From the NCBI GenBank assembly GCA_031280035.1, contig JAITHJ010000010.1, positions 1 through 33,303 on the forward strand: a DNA stretch of 33,303 nt. The letters run 5' to 3'. Under the pieces are notes generated by a model, which saw nothing but the letters and a program-made list of their open reading frames with translations, ran no database searches and had not been told where the DNA came from. This stretch comes from Spirochaetaceae bacterium. Lineage in GTDB: Bacteria > Spirochaetota > Spirochaetia > Treponematales > Breznakiellaceae. A program made the position numbers and the translations under genes. Positions 5,716 to 12,352 of this stretch are shown one piece after another (the stretch's first letter is position 1; each line of letters starts with the position of its first letter).

Positions 5716-8436
5716 ATGGAAAGCAAAACATTAAGCATAGGCGGGATGAGCTGCGCCGCCTGCGCCGGACGGGTCGAGAGGGCTGTGCGGAAAGTTGAAG
5801 GAATTACCGGCGCAACGGTCAACTTCGCAACGGAAAAGCTCTTTGTTGAGTATGAGGGCGCAGAGGTGCTGTCCGCCGTCAAAGAAGCGATTGTGAAGGC
5901 AGGCTACGAAGTGCTGGAAAAGGCAGAAGTCTCCGCCGTAACAATCCCTATCGGCGGGATGAGCTGCGCGGCGTGCGCGGCGCGGGTCGAGAAGGCGCTT
6001 TTGAAACTTGAGGGCGTAGAGAGCGCAAGCGTGAACTTTGCCACGGAAAAGGCGTCGCTGGTCTACAACCCCAAACTGCTGCGGCTTTCTTCTATAAAAG
6101 AGGCCGTTACAAAGGCCGGATACACGCCGCTGGAAGTTTCAAAAGACGGCGCGGTGGACGAAGACCGCCGCCGCAAAGAGCGCGAGATAAAGATTCTCAA
6201 AACAAAGTTCATAGTCGCCGTGAGCTTTGCCGCGCCGCTGCTCTACATCGCTATGGTTCCCATGATAAAATGGTTCAGCCTCCCCTTCCCCAAAGCTCTT
6301 GCCCCAATGAACTTTCCGCTCATCTATGCGCTTGCAGAGCTTTTGCTGGTAATTCCTGTGATCATCGCGGGCAATAAATTCTACAGCGCGGGCTTTAAGA
6401 ACCTCCTGCGCCGCAGCCCCAACATGGACAGCCTCATCGCCATAGGCACAACGGCGGCGGTCGCCTACAGCGTCTACAACCTATTCGAGATAGCAGGCGG
6501 GAACTTCAACGCCGTTGACGCGCTCTACTTTGAGACGGCGGGCGTCATCATCGCGTTGATACTGCTGGGAAAGACGCTTGAAGCCGTCTCCAAAGGCCGC
6601 ACGAGCGAGGCGATAAAAAAGCTCATGGGGCTGGCTCCCAAAACGGCGATTGTCATTGAGGACGGCATCGAGAAAGAAATCCCGATAGACGAGGTGGTTC
6701 CCGGCGACATCATCGTGGTAAAACCCGGCGCGAAAATCCCTGTAGACGGCGTGGTTACCGAAGGCCAAAGCGCCGTTGACGAATCGATGCTCACAGGCGA
6801 AAGTATGCCAATCGACAAAAAAGCGGGGGACAAAGTTTTTGCGGCGACGATCAACGCAAACGGCCTGCTCCGTTTTAAGGCCGAGAAAACCGGCGGCGAT
6901 ACGGCGCTCGCGCAGATCATCCGCCTGGTGGAGGACGCGCAGAGCAGCAAAGCGCCGATAGCCCAGATGGCCGACATCGTGTCCGGCTATTTTGTTCCGG
7001 TGGTCTGCGTTATCGCGCTCATCGCCGGAATTGCGTGGTTTGCCGCCGCGCAGGCGGGCTTCGTTGCGCTGCCCGCGGGAAAGCCGGCGCTGGAGTTCGC
7101 CCTCACAATCTTTATTTCGGTGCTGGTGATAGCCTGCCCCTGCGCGCTCGGCCTTGCCACCCCCACGGCAATCATGGTGGGCACGGGCAAGGGCGCGGAA
7201 AACGGCATCCTCATCAAAGGCGGCGAGGCGCTGGAGACGGCGCACAAAATCACCACGATTGTGTTCGACAAAACAGGCACTATCACCGAGGGCAAGCCGG
7301 AAGTTACCGATGTTGTGAGCGCAGGCGGCGCTGAAACGGAGTATCTTTTGCGGATAACGGCCTCCGCCGAAAAGGGCAGCGAGCATCCGCTCGGCCATGC
7401 CATCGTGCGCGAAGCGGAAAAGCGCGGCCTTGCCCTCCTCGATGTAAGCGCCTTCAAAGCCATCCCCGGCCGCGGCATGGAAGCTGTTATTCAGGGATCA
7501 GGGGTCAGGGATCAGGGGTCAGGGATTTCTGGCCACGATGTGTTACCTAACGCAGATGGCGCAGTTCACTCTGATATACCGGCAAAAACTCCGGCACCCG
7601 GCCCCCGGCCCCCGACCCCCATCCTCGTTGGCAACAGAAAGCTGATGGATGAGCGGGGGATTTCGCTTGCGGAGCTGGAGGGTGATTCTGACAGGCTGGC
7701 CGGAGAAGGCAAAACGCCCATGTATGTCGCGCTGGACGGAAAGCTCTCAGGCATTGTCGCCGTGGCTGACGTGCTCAAAAGTTCCAGCAAGGCGGCCATC
7801 GAAAAGCTGCGCAAAATGGGCATCGAGGTTGTGATGATAACCGGCGACAACAAAAAAACCGCCGCCGCCATCGCCCGAGAGGCCGGCATAAGCCGCGTCC
7901 TCGCCGAAGTCCTCCCCCAGGACAAGGCGGCGGAAGTGAAGAAGTTACAGTTGTCAGTTGCCGGCTGTCAGTTGCCAGTAAATTCAGGACGGGATATGTT
8001 GCCGAACACAGAGCACGCCGTTAGCCCCGATATACCGGACACAAAACCGACAACCGGCAACCGAAAACTGACAACTGTAGTCGCTATGGTCGGGGACGGC
8101 ATCAATGACGCGCCGGCGCTGGCGCAGGCGGATGTGGGGATTGCTATCGGCAGCGGGACGGATGTCGCTATTGAAAGCGCCGGCATCGTGCTGATGCGCT
8201 CCGATTTAATGGACGTTGCCACAGCCATCAACCTCAGCAAGCGGACGATTCGCAACATCAAGCAGAACCTCTTCTGGGCATTCGGCTACAATGTGCTGGG
8301 CATTCCCGTTGCCGCGGGCCTGCTCTATCTGTTCGGCGGGCCGCTTCTCAACCCGATTTTCGCCGCCGCCGCGATGAGCATGAGCTCAGTTTCGGTATTA
8401 ACCAACGCGCTGCGGCTTAAAAGGTTTAAGGCGTGA
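5716..8436 (+). CDS. copA: Copper-translocating P-type ATPase with two N-terminal HMA domains (906 aa)
   Basis: Two [15 protein letters not shown] HMA motifs, TGES, CPC ([13 protein letters not shown]), [37 protein letters not shown]. Two extra segments interrupt the normal sequence in-frame. Confidence 0.96.
7492..7623 (+). repeat. In-frame inserted element 1 (heptamer-repeat arms plus conserved core) in copA
   Basis: GGGTCAG/GGATCAG heptads at the left, CCGGCCC/CCGACCC heptads at the right; core encodes [20 protein letters not shown]; interrupts the conserved GRGMEAV...LVGNRKLM segment. Confidence 0.8.
7945..8079 (+). repeat. In-frame inserted element 2, related to element 1, in copA
   Basis: Left TACAGTTGTCAGTTGCCGGCTGTCAGTTGCCAGT vs right-arm reverse complement TACAGTTGTCAGTTTTCGGTTGCCGGTTGTCGGT; core encodes [20 protein letters not shown]; interrupts [10 protein letters not shown]...[15 protein letters not shown]. 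Confidence 0.85.
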
Positions 8437-8465: not shown

Positions 8466-9179
8466 ATGAAGATTACGTTAAATTGTATGAAAATAGCGGC
8501 TGCGCTTATCGCGCTGTCCGCCGCGGCTTCCTGCGCGAAGCTCGATGTGGTTGGAACGGGGAGCGTCCGCTCCTTTGAGAAACTGCTCCAGCGCGTCCCG
8601 CAGCTTGTATCGGCTGATGATATGAACGGCGGCTTGAGATCGGCTGACGATATGAACGGCGGTTGGAGTCTTGCCGCGCCGGACAGCACGGCGCGCTTTG
8701 TGTGGAGCAAGAACTATGCCCAAAGCCCCCTCCACGATGTGATGCTGGAGTTCGACGCCGCCCCGTTTATCGCCGCCGGCCTTGACCCCGCCAAGCTCCC
8801 CGTACAATTTTCCTATTACGAAGGCAAGCTGATGACCGGCGCCAAGCTCGGCGGCGAAGAGATCACATATTCCGGCGATGATGTTACGCCGCTTGCCTCT
8901 TATGAAGCGCTCGTCAGGCTGAAGAGAAAGGCCGTCGGCTATCACGGGGCGCTTGACCATTACGGCATCAATCTGGGAAACGGCAATTTGTTTGAATGGG
9001 CGAAGGACATGGATACCAACGATAAAGACATCGTGTTTGTGCTTGACCCCGCGCCGTTTATCGCCGCCGGCACAGACGTCTCAAAGATAGCGGGCTGGAT
9101 TTTTACCAAAGTTACCGTAGACGATGAAAACGGCAAACCAATTCAAGTTGACAAAATAGTAAAACCGTTCGATTTATAA
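8466..9179 (+). CDS. Small secreted lipoprotein of unknown function, probably co-transcribed with copA
   Basis: Start at MKITLNCMKIAAALIALSAAASC (lipobox SAAASC); AGGAG RBS; 29 nt after the copA stop. The track ORF start at 8433 overlaps copA and is less likely. Confidence 0.7.
   Translation: MKITLNCMKIAAALIALSAAASCAKLDVVGTGSVRSFEKLLQRVPQLVSADDMNGGLRSADDMNGGWSLAAPDSTARFVWSKNYAQSPLHDVMLEFDAAPFIAAGLDPAKLPVQFSYYEGKLMTGAKLGGEEITYSGDDVTPLASYEALVRLKRKAVGYHGALDHYGINLGNGNLFEWAKDMDTNDKDIVFVLDPAPFIAAGTDVSKIAGWIFTKVTVDDENGKPIQVDKIVKPFDL
8610..8669 (+). repeat. 30-bp tandem duplication inside the lipoprotein gene
   Basis: TCGGCTGATGATATGAACGGCGGCTTGAGA then TCGGCTGACGATATGAACGGCGGTTGGAGT, encoding SADDMNGGLR / SADDMNGGWS. 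Confidence 0.9.
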
Positions 9180-9183
9180 CACG

Positions 9184-9221
9184 CGGCACAAGCACACGGA
9201 CATGGATGCGCGCTTGTGCCG
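9184..9221. repeat. Inverted repeat after the lipoprotein gene
   Basis: CGGCACAAGC (9184-9193) and GCTTGTGCCG (9212-9221), perfect 10-bp arms, 18-nt loop, no T tract. Confidence 0.75.
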
Positions 9222-9471
9222 GCAATAGAGATGTGGTTTTGCCGGCAACAGAATTTTAACCGCCGGTAATAGAGATGATTTTGCTGGCAAAGAAAATTTT
9301 ATCGCCGGCAATGGTGATGATTTTGCCGGCAATGGAAGTCTTATCGCCGGCAATGGTGATGATTTTGCTGGCAACGGAAGTTTTATCGCCGGCAATGGTG
9401 ATGGTTTTGCTGGCAAAGAAAATTTTATTGCCGGCAATGGTGATGGTTTTGCTGGCAAAGAAAGTTTTATC
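9218..9471. repeat. Minisatellite: 12 units of a 21-bp repeat (first unit 23 bp), with partly alternating 42-bp higher-order pattern
   Basis: Units such as GCCGGCAATGGTGATGATTTT alternating with GCTGGCAAAGAAAATTTTATC; 23 + 11x21 = 254 nt. Confidence 0.95.
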
Positions 9472-9585
9472 ATCGGCGAAGACGCTGCCGCTCCCTGTCT
9501 GCTGTCTGTGTGTGAAAAGAACAATAAGACGGCATGATTGCCGCGCCGGTCTGCTTACTGCAAGCATGAGTTAATCGGCGTTATC

Positions 9586-10170
9586 TTATACCTTGACGAA
9601 GGTTACGCCGGCGTTATGAAGCGATGTATATGCCTTTTTTGCAGAATCAGCAGGAATATTTACCGCGCGCACGGCGTTTTCCAGCACAAAAACACGGTAC
9701 CCAAGCGCGTTGGCATCCTGCGCGCTGTAAAAAACACAATAATCAAGGGCAAGCCCGCCAAGATAAATGTCCTTTACGCCCAGTACGTCAAGAAAGCCGG
9801 CGAGTCCTGTTGCGGTTTTCTGGTCATTTTCAAAAAAGGCGGAATACGAATCAAGATTCACGCGAAATCCTTTGCGTAAGATAAGGGTAACCGGTTCAAT
9901 ATCCAGCGCGCTGTGAAGGAGCGCGCCATGACTTCCCCATACGCAATGAGCAGGCCACAGCCCGCCTTGTTCACTAAAAGAAGAATGAAGGGGCGGATGC
10001 CAATCCTGCGTTGCAATAACCGGCGCGCCATGAAACGCAAAAGCCTTCGCAAACTCATTTAACGGCTCAATAACCGCATCTCCGTCAAAAACAGCAAGCG
10101 TTCCGCCGGGACAAAAATCATTTTGAACATCAACCATGATAAGCGCCGCACAAGAATAATCAATTTCCAT
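9586..10170 (-). CDS. pncA: Nicotinamidase/isochorismatase-family hydrolase (PncA-like)
   Basis: ALIMVDVQNDFCPGGTLAV, VIATQDWHPPLHSSF, LWPAHCVWGS, LGGLALDYCVFYSAQDA: nicotinamidase motifs with catalytic D/K/C. Start chosen at MEIDYSCAALIMVD; the track's 10200 start adds 10 aa. Confidence 0.88.
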   Translation of the reverse strand: MEIDYSCAALIMVDVQNDFCPGGTLAVFDGDAVIEPLNEFAKAFAFHGAPVIATQDWHPPLHSSFSEQGGLWPAHCVWGSHGALLHSALDIEPVTLILRKGFRVNLDSYSAFFENDQKTATGLAGFLDVLGVKDIYLGGLALDYCVFYSAQDANALGYRVFVLENAVRAVNIPADSAKKAYTSLHNAGVTFVKV

Positions 10171-10213
10171 ATCGCTGCCTCTCTCGCTGTCAGCCAGCAT
10201 AGCGGCTTCCGCT

Positions 10214-10936
10214 CTAAAAGTCTACACAGCAGAGCAAGTCGCCTTTAAGATCGAGGTAGAGTGCGTCTTTTATGCCGATAAATCGCTTGAAAGAATACAT
10301 ATACGGGAAAAAATTGATGTGCAGATCTACCGTGTACCGGTACTCCCGCTGGCGTGGAACAACGATTATCAGCCGCTTTCGCGTTACACGAATTAATTCC
10401 GCAAGAGCCTTGTGCGGTTCGCGGATATGCTCCAGAGCGTGTGTGCAAATGACCACATCAAATGAATCATCGCAAAACGGCAGTGCAGTTATATCAGCCT
10501 GCCTGATTTCAAACGGAACAGAACTTGCAGACGGAGCTATATCAACGCCGGTACAGACTACAGCAGGACTTGCATCCAGTATTTTGTTCAGCAAATATCC
10601 TCTGCCGCACGCGGCATCAAGAATATGCCCCCCCCCCGCGTTAATGGCGTAATAATCCTGAACATTTTGAACTATCCATTGCAGGCACTGTTTATTGCAG
10701 TCAGTATAGCGATTAGAATTGATAGGAACGGCAACTATCGCTCTATAATACTGCGCCAATTCTTCATCGCTCATAAAAGGAAATTTTTCTTTGAAGTCAA
10801 GCAAATATTTTGTCTTATCTCCATAGGCGATCTTCATAAATGGCCTCATGAACCACGCGCAATCCCTCAATACCGGCGGAATTAAATTATCAAGAATATA
10901 ATTGGCAATCAATGTAACATTACGGTCTAGCAGCAT
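10214..10936 (-). CDS. Class I SAM-dependent methyltransferase (240 aa)
   Basis: Motif I HILDAACGRGYLL, TGVDIA, LPFCDDSFDVVICTHALEHI, typical Methyltransf_11 layout. Confidence 0.85.
   Translation of the reverse strand: MLLDRNVTLIANYILDNLIPPVLRDCAWFMRPFMKIAYGDKTKYLLDFKEKFPFMSDEELAQYYRAIVAVPINSNRYTDCNKQCLQWIVQNVQDYYAINAGGGHILDAACGRGYLLNKILDASPAVVCTGVDIAPSASSVPFEIRQADITALPFCDDSFDVVICTHALEHIREPHKALAELIRVTRKRLIIVVPRQREYRYTVDLHINFFPYMYSFKRFIGIKDALYLDLKGDLLCCVDF
10628..10637 (-). repeat. Homopolymeric G10 tract (C10 on + strand) within the methyltransferase CDS
   Basis: + strand aatatgCCCCCCCCCCgcgtt; minus GCG GGG GGG GGG CAT encodes A-G-G-G-H immediately before motif I. Confidence 0.95.
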
Positions 10937-10956
10937 TGTTGTATCCTATTTCGTTA

Positions 10957-11388
10957 TTAAATGACTTTTTTTGTCAAAGTAAGCTGGTTCTTGCCATCAA
11001 TTCTTTTATAATCAACACTATCCATCCATTTTTTCATAATCAAGATGCCAAAACCACCGGCTTCCCGTTCGTTAAGCGAAGCAGAAACTTCAGGCGTTTT
11101 GTACGTCAGTGGATTGAATTCAATACCACTATCTTCAAACCGGATAACAAGAATAGAATCCTTTGTTCCAACAAAAACAGTAACGTTGCTATCGCCGTTT
11201 TGCGCATAAGCGTATTCACAGATATTTACAAATACCTCTTCAGTAACAACAGCAAGCTGGCTGCAAGCTTTAGTAGTACATTGAATATTATCCAAAATAA
11301 CGCTAAGCCAATCCTGAAGTTTATCAAGATCATCTATTTTAGCGGACAACTCAATCCTCTCTTTAAATACAAAAGATATCTCTTCCAT
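10957..11388 (-). CDS. RsbW-like anti-sigma/serine kinase (HATPase_c)
   Basis: N-box EEVFVNICEYAY, G1 DSGIEFNP, G2 GGFGILIMKKWMD; adjacent to a STAS gene. Confidence 0.85.
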   Translation of the reverse strand: MEEISFVFKERIELSAKIDDLDKLQDWLSVILDNIQCTTKACSQLAVVTEEVFVNICEYAYAQNGDSNVTVFVGTKDSILVIRFEDSGIEFNPLTYKTPEVSASLNEREAGGFGILIMKKWMDSVDYKRIDGKNQLTLTKKVI

Positions 11389-11412: not shown

Positions 11413-11712
11413 TTAGTTCTCAATAGTAAAAATATTATTAAGACCTGTTATTTCAAATACATCCATAACCTCTCTTCTAACGTTACGAATTACAAATGCT
11501 CCCTCCGCAGAAAATTTTTTCTTTGCACAAAGCAATACTCGCAACCCCGCGGACGCCAAAAAACTAATGTCCTTAAAATCCAAAACTAATTTACTGGCAG
11601 CTCCAACAACAGATTCAATGCACTGATTTAAATCTTGCGTTGCTGCAGCAGTCAGCTTCCCATTCAGTTGTAACGTTACTTCATCTCCGGCTTGTATCTT
11701 TTCAATTTTCAT
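11413..11712 (-). CDS. STAS-domain anti-sigma factor antagonist-like protein
   Basis: LVLDFKDISFLASAGLRVLL (D-x-S-x-L-x-S-x-G-L motif with phosphorylatable Ser), 99 aa. Confidence 0.88.
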   Translation of the reverse strand: MKIEKIQAGDEVTLQLNGKLTAAATQDLNQCIESVVGAASKLVLDFKDISFLASAGLRVLLCAKKKFSAEGAFVIRNVRREVMDVFEITGLNNIFTIEN

Positions 11713-11752
11713 CCGAATTCCTTTGCGATTTACGCTTTATTTTATAATTTTT

Positions 11753-12352
11753 TTATAATTTGTCAAGATTAAATCTTATACACGCCGATACAGGCAAAAT
11801 AAAACCCGCTTTGTTTAAAGACATATCCGTTGCGCCGTTAACATGAAAATCCACCGCAAATCCAGGACAAACATCTATTGCTAACGCAATCAGTGATTTT
11901 GGAAAAAAACACACGCCAAAAAGACCTGTTGCGTTAAATAAAAAATCAAAAAAATCATAAATTCCAAGAGATCCTGAAACACCGGCTCTTAATCCGATAA
12001 ATTTTGTGTCTAATGTAACGTATAAATTGTCTTTAATGCCGAACATAAATTTTTGATAATCCTTAAGAGAAGAATTACCATTGTTTTTTACTTCGTTATA
12101 CTGGTCAGAAAGCGTCATACTGCCAAATGAAAGCAACGAATCATTCTGTATAAAAGGATTGAACAACTGAAGATTAAAACCAATATTATAATTCCAATAA
12201 TCACGTACATAATAATCGTCTTCTTTGGTGATATATTTTCCAATGTTCGGCTTAAAATAACCAGTATCAGCGCCAAACAACACCATATTTTGAGAAAAAG
12301 AATACGGAATAATCATCATGCCCATGACAAATACAAACATAAATTTTTTCAT
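11753..12352 (-). CDS. Secreted, probably outer-membrane protein of unknown function, downstream of tssM
   Basis: Signal peptide MKKFMFVFVMGMMIIPYSFSQ; aromatic/alternating beta-rich sequence ending FNLDKL; 21 nt after the tssM stop. Confidence 0.6.
   Translation of the reverse strand: MKKFMFVFVMGMMIIPYSFSQNMVLFGADTGYFKPNIGKYITKEDDYYVRDYWNYNIGFNLQLFNPFIQNDSLLSFGSMTLSDQYNEVKNNGNSSLKDYQKFMFGIKDNLYVTLDTKFIGLRAGVSGSLGIYDFFDFLFNATGLFGVCFFPKSLIALAIDVCPGFAVDFHVNGATDMSLNKAGFILPVSACIRFNLDKL

Follow-up and report, generated by a model that had tools for sequence, protein, structure and literature searches.

We identified a run of ten consecutive guanines inside a methyltransferase gene of a spirochaete genome, and its position in the gene, its frequency against chance and the repeats found in orthologous genes together point to a probable slipped-strand ON/OFF contingency switch of a putative envelope-glycan methyltransferase. 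The run lies at positions 10,628–10,637 of the window (the whole 33,303-nucleotide stretch of DNA that was analyzed). It is on the minus strand, appearing as C10 on the plus strand, and occupies codons 100–103 of an open reading frame (10,214–10,936, minus strand) that is intact at the G10 length and encodes a class I SAM-dependent methyltransferase of 240 amino acids. The match to Pfam family Methyltransf_11 scores 60.8 bits (E = 2e-16; cut-off 21.2), and related families of the Methyltransf_11/25/31 type also match. An AGGAT that resembles a ribosome-binding site (10,943–10,947, minus strand) precedes the ATG and may serve in that role.

The run is read as GCG GGG GGG GGG CAT (Ala-Gly-Gly-Gly-His) and leads immediately into HILDAACGRGYLL, within the SAM-binding motif I region HILDAACGRG (10,598–10,627, minus strand); an alignment of methyltransferase homologs shows that LDAACGRG is conserved. 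This placement, right before motif I, agrees with the first-pass annotation of the sequence. Its further claim that a slip of one base removes the catalytic region is borne out by the computed products, which are 115 amino acids after loss and 106 after gain of one G, compared with 240 at the G10 length, so that the catalytic core is lost in both cases. The region that holds the run is a linker ahead of the first core strand. The length of this linker varies in the family alignment, and the enzyme should therefore cope with length changes of three bases. AlphaFold2 modeling of the methyltransferase from a two-sequence input gave a mean pLDDT of 40, and the model was set aside. The nearest solved structures are mixed methyltransferases, including a D-glucose O-methyltransferase (6uv6, 1.4e-7).

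The features of simple-repeat translational phase variation that can be read from sequence are present: an in-frame repeat in excess of expectation, truncation with each unit gained or lost, and ON and OFF alleles between species. In the mechanism that we propose, slipped-strand mispairing during replication would add G to the run or remove G from it. A length of 10, or any other length of 3n+1, would permit read-through to an intact methyltransferase (ON); lengths of 3n or 3n+2 would bring a stop shortly after the run and leave an N-terminal piece of 106–115 residues (OFF). In the ON state the enzyme would place a methyl group on a sugar of an envelope glycan. Switching would then generate populations with mixed methylated and unmethylated surfaces, which may be of benefit against phages, host factors or competitors. 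The scheme presumes that the length of the run changes frequently and reversibly in living cells.

G runs across the genome and the family

The genome that contains the window is a draft metagenome-assembled genome (MAG) of 1.43 Mb (64% complete, 74 contigs). It carries 37 runs of at least nine G, 32 of which have at least ten. Based on Markov models of order 1–3 fitted to the window sequence, the expected number of runs of at least ten G is 0.001–0.013 per window and 0.04–0.5 per 1.43 Mb. GGG accounts for 8.2% of the glycine codons in the window, and the probability of three consecutive GGG codons at a Gly3 site is about 5e-4. The window contains 12 stretches of at least three glycines; only one, the G10 site, is encoded entirely by GGG, and the other 11 are not. 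Given the genome-wide excess of runs and the rarity of GGG in the window, we conclude that the G10 run is a member of a genome-wide class of runs and not an accident of codon usage.

Two genomes from the same genus contain 46 and 61 such runs, a 1.1-Mb single-contig relative from what is apparently the same order (G034) contains 33 runs of at least nine G, and counts for other genomes of the family range from 4 to 307; these counts are approximate, because some runs at contig ends in relatives, for example G90 and G36, resemble dark-cycle poly-G artifacts. Loss of mismatch repair was ruled out as the cause of the many runs, since the window's genome and relatives G001, G002 and G010, the last with 307 runs, all have MutS and MutL domains. 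In G013, with 156 runs, MutS is present and the search for MutL gave no match.

Of the 37 runs that the window's genome carries, about 12 are intragenic, in ~1% of its genes. As judged in the stretches around the runs, about nine are in frame and three out of frame. The run-bearing genes include GT2, an adjacent second methyltransferase, MBOAT, PMT_2, DUF6541-like, sulfatase-family, GDPD and permease genes. The frame of the MBOAT acyltransferase terminates just past its run, as does that of the DUF6541-like membrane protein past its own (here the Pfam match is weak, just under the cut-off), and the PMT_2 glycosyltransferase is split at its run. The PMT_2 ortholog in G001 (66%) is intact and has a G10 run at another codon. 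An MBOAT gene with a run just upstream is found in both the window's genome and G002. On contig C7 of the window's genome (L039:1,259–3,082), the adjacent GT2 and Methyltransf_23-like genes each contain an in-frame G13 run, and they are candidates for a second, linked pair of switches.

Other runs occur in recurring contexts. In G002, about ten runs of G12–17 directly follow TTGAC (at L071, L073, L074, L075, L086, L095, L101, L102, L105, L107 and L112), several of them with a TATAAT-like hexamer 15–20 nt further on, as if the run were a promoter spacer in the arrangement of tp0126 and porA. Eleven more runs in this genome follow TTTAC. Neither the TTGAC nor the TTTAC type of context was found around the runs of the window's genome or of G001. 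The G002 genome also contains a dispersed element of ~160 bp that has C and G runs at opposite ends and an outward-facing TTGAC, and the conserved core of which is TTAACAAA.G..AAG.GCTTTTT. Copies are located at L073:86–247, L074:1,474–1,632, L094:1,499–1,659, L101:1,497–1,657, L102:848–1,006 and L107:1,495–1,653, and the element is a candidate vehicle for G runs, whether mobile or multiplied. In the window's genome, a common context, (C)TGCGC-G(n)-CGAAG, surrounds intergenic runs at L061, L062, L066 (two runs), L038, L043, L056 and L047, which suggests a further dispersed repeat with G runs.

Orthologs and turnover of repeats

Matches to the methyltransferase at E ≤ 1e-12 were found in five of 200 genomes of the family, the window's own included. 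Each species is represented by one genome, and the comparison is thus one between species. The ortholog in G438, from another genus and 63% identical, has an in-frame G16 run at the homologous codon site (IIMGGGGGILDAACGRG), and that in G002, from the same genus, has only G3 there (AACGGGACC). Interruption of the tract in relatives, which the first-pass annotation had regarded as evidence against switching, therefore gives a mixed picture. About 35 codons downstream of this site the G002 gene contains a G12 run, between GVDIAPPADIA and MNPFNIQQADIT, and the two halves of the protein occupy different frames that part exactly at the run. As G002 is one short-read style draft, the frame split could be an assembly error in run length. 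The ortholog in G440 has no G run; the gene contains a 21-bp unit repeated 16.9 times (L156:799–1,152) and its C-terminus is changed. At L156:2,158–2,239 of the same genome, a perfect 7-bp repeat of 11.7 copies is located ahead of a GtrA gene.

A G run is therefore present in three of the four close orthologs of the family, at two sites, with another type of repeat in the fourth. The lengths and states between species are G10 (ON) and G16 (ON) at the same site and G12 (OFF) at the other. Given that in-gene runs touch ~1% of the genes in the window's genome, this recurrence is unlikely to arise by chance, although the pattern was spotted post hoc, after looking at the orthologs. The run shared by the window's genome and G438 was possibly inherited from a common ancestor. 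More distant homologs in G545 (36%) and G170 (43%, outside the family) have no run, nor does a homolog that is 57–59% identical (L029:4,983–5,714). The latter comes from a MAG of a different phylum (labelled Chitinivibrionia) and was the sole close homolog recovered in one homology scan of genome contigs; it is probably explained by horizontal transfer or misbinning.

Repeats differ in kind and position within single genes: G10 or G16 at one site, G12 at a second and a 21-bp array in the methyltransferase gene, and runs at two sites in the PMT_2 gene. A tentative extension of the switch reading, to which we give somewhat less than even weight, is that a set of switchable genes may be kept while the repeats turn over in the family, with selection in these gut symbionts acting on the switchability of a gene and not on a given tract. 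Several orthologs bear different repeats, and turnover of contingency loci is thus directly testable.

The main alternative to a selected switch is that the run is a by-product of a lineage that makes or tolerates long G runs through biased slippage, in which case it would slip as a liability without a selected role. Consistent with this, runs are many and genomes of the family differ widely in their number (4 to 307), many runs are intergenic, and G002 has only G3 at the G10 site. However, in-gene runs are few (about 12 of 37 in the window's genome), whereas three of the four close orthologs of the methyltransferase have one, and the in-gene runs, as read from the stretches around them, lie largely in envelope-glycan genes. 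We consider the by-product explanation rather unlikely and favor the contingency switch.

Gene neighborhood and predicted substrate

The window includes a type VI secretion system (T6SS) gene set between positions 24 and 25,187 (Hcp, VgrG-like, VipA/B, TssK, TssM, TssF and ClpV-like). The first-pass annotation placed the methyltransferase at the tail of this operon, a placement that we do not find convincing. The gene follows a STAS-like (anti-anti-sigma-factor-like) gene with a 99-amino-acid product (11,413–11,712, minus strand; named from sequence alone) and an anti-sigma-factor-kinase-like HATPase_c_2 gene (10,957–11,388, minus strand; Pfam 9e-21), and between this pair and the T6SS operon is a sigma70-like site, TTGACA-16-TAAAAT (11,739–11,766, minus strand). 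The site matches the consensus at 11 of 12 positions in a scan that as a whole was not above chance; it is only suggestive of a possible promoter belonging to the downstream group. Past the methyltransferase stop, after 13 nt, begins a nicotinamidase/pyrazinamidase gene (9,586–10,200, minus strand; NCBIfam NF008623, 183.2 bits, cut-off 174), which may be subject to polar effects of OFF states. The STAS-like, HATPase, methyltransferase and nicotinamidase genes, in this order, may form an operon. Two other repeat features are located in the window: tandem repeats downstream of the nicotinamidase gene at 9,174–9,567 (PLPAKSSPLPAIK in one frame), and a heavy-metal P-type ATPase-like open reading frame (5,716–8,436) with two similar 33-residue inserts that resemble an in-frame dispersed repeat element.

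The neighbors of the homologs are DUF6056 in G002, GT2 in G438, GtrA in G440, GT2 genes flanking the homolog on either side in G545 and, in G170, a GT2-GtrA protein. Because the homologs adjoin such genes, the substrate is most likely a sugar of an envelope glycan, as judged from these neighbors alone. No glycan genes were found beside the window copy or beside the L029 homolog, and the window copy is displaced relative to the glycan settings of its homologs.

It is very improbable that the methyltransferase is a member of the T6SS operon and acts, when switched, on a target linked to T6SS or to regulation. Directly upstream there is indeed a genuine T6SS operon (TssM, TssK, ClpV, TssF, VipA/B and Hcp), and all genes from TssM to STAS are on one strand. 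However, none of the methyltransferase homologs examined had T6SS genes close by in the stretches read (short around some), those in five further genomes from the phylum lie among glycan genes, STAS/HATPase homologs in relatives have no such methyltransferase alongside, and the promoter-like site separates the two units. Of the first-pass proposal of a phase-variable gene tied to T6SS, the switch is supported by the genome-wide excess of runs, by G16 in G438 and by the frame split at G12 in G002; the tie to T6SS is not, as homologs are found elsewhere, among glycan genes. A sequencing or assembly artifact, with the run spurious or its length wrong, is scarcely credible: although the genome is a draft MAG and contig-end runs in relatives (G90, G36) look like dark-cycle poly-G, this run lies well inside its contig, with 10.6 kb to one end and 22.7 kb to the other, has unique coding sequence on its flanks, leaves the frame intact through G10 and has a counterpart, G16, at the same site in the independent genome G438.

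Comparison with known phase-variable systems

Most known examples of phase variation by poly-G tracts come from mucosal pathogens and Treponema pallidum. The lineage of the window is uncultured and probably from termite gut. Our search, confined to open-access literature, returned no account of phase variation in spirochaetes of the termite gut. The less ordinary part of our results is the very large number of runs in this lineage together with the turnover of repeats within one gene. Genomes with MutS and MutL contain dozens to hundreds of G runs, those in genes largely in envelope-glycan genes. This suggests that strong selection on the cell surface, possibly phage-driven, also operates on insect-gut symbionts.

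In phasevarions, too, a simple repeat switches a methyltransferase. The possibility that the window gene is a DNA methyltransferase of this kind was ruled out, as its Pfam matches are only to families of the Methyltransf_11/25/31 type, without a DNA-methyltransferase or restriction domain.

In T. pallidum, which apparently belongs to the same bacterial order as the lineage of the window, poly-G runs at tprE/G/J, tprL and tp0126 differ in length within isolates, with effects on transcription (PMC7864442). Those runs are of similar size (about G 7–11) and variable length. The named examples are promoter runs of outer-membrane protein genes, whereas the G10 run is intragenic and would act on translation.

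The closest parallel in architecture is cj1426 of Campylobacter jejuni, a capsule heptose 6-O-methyltransferase that is phase-variable via a polyG tract (PMC8437040). The organism is a different one, the sugar-modifying role is known for cj1426 and proposed for the window gene, and no glycan cluster was seen around the window copy. The likeness considered here is one of architecture: in both, a methyltransferase gene has an internal G run, for which in-frame lengths are ON, or are predicted to be so in the window gene, and other lengths OFF.
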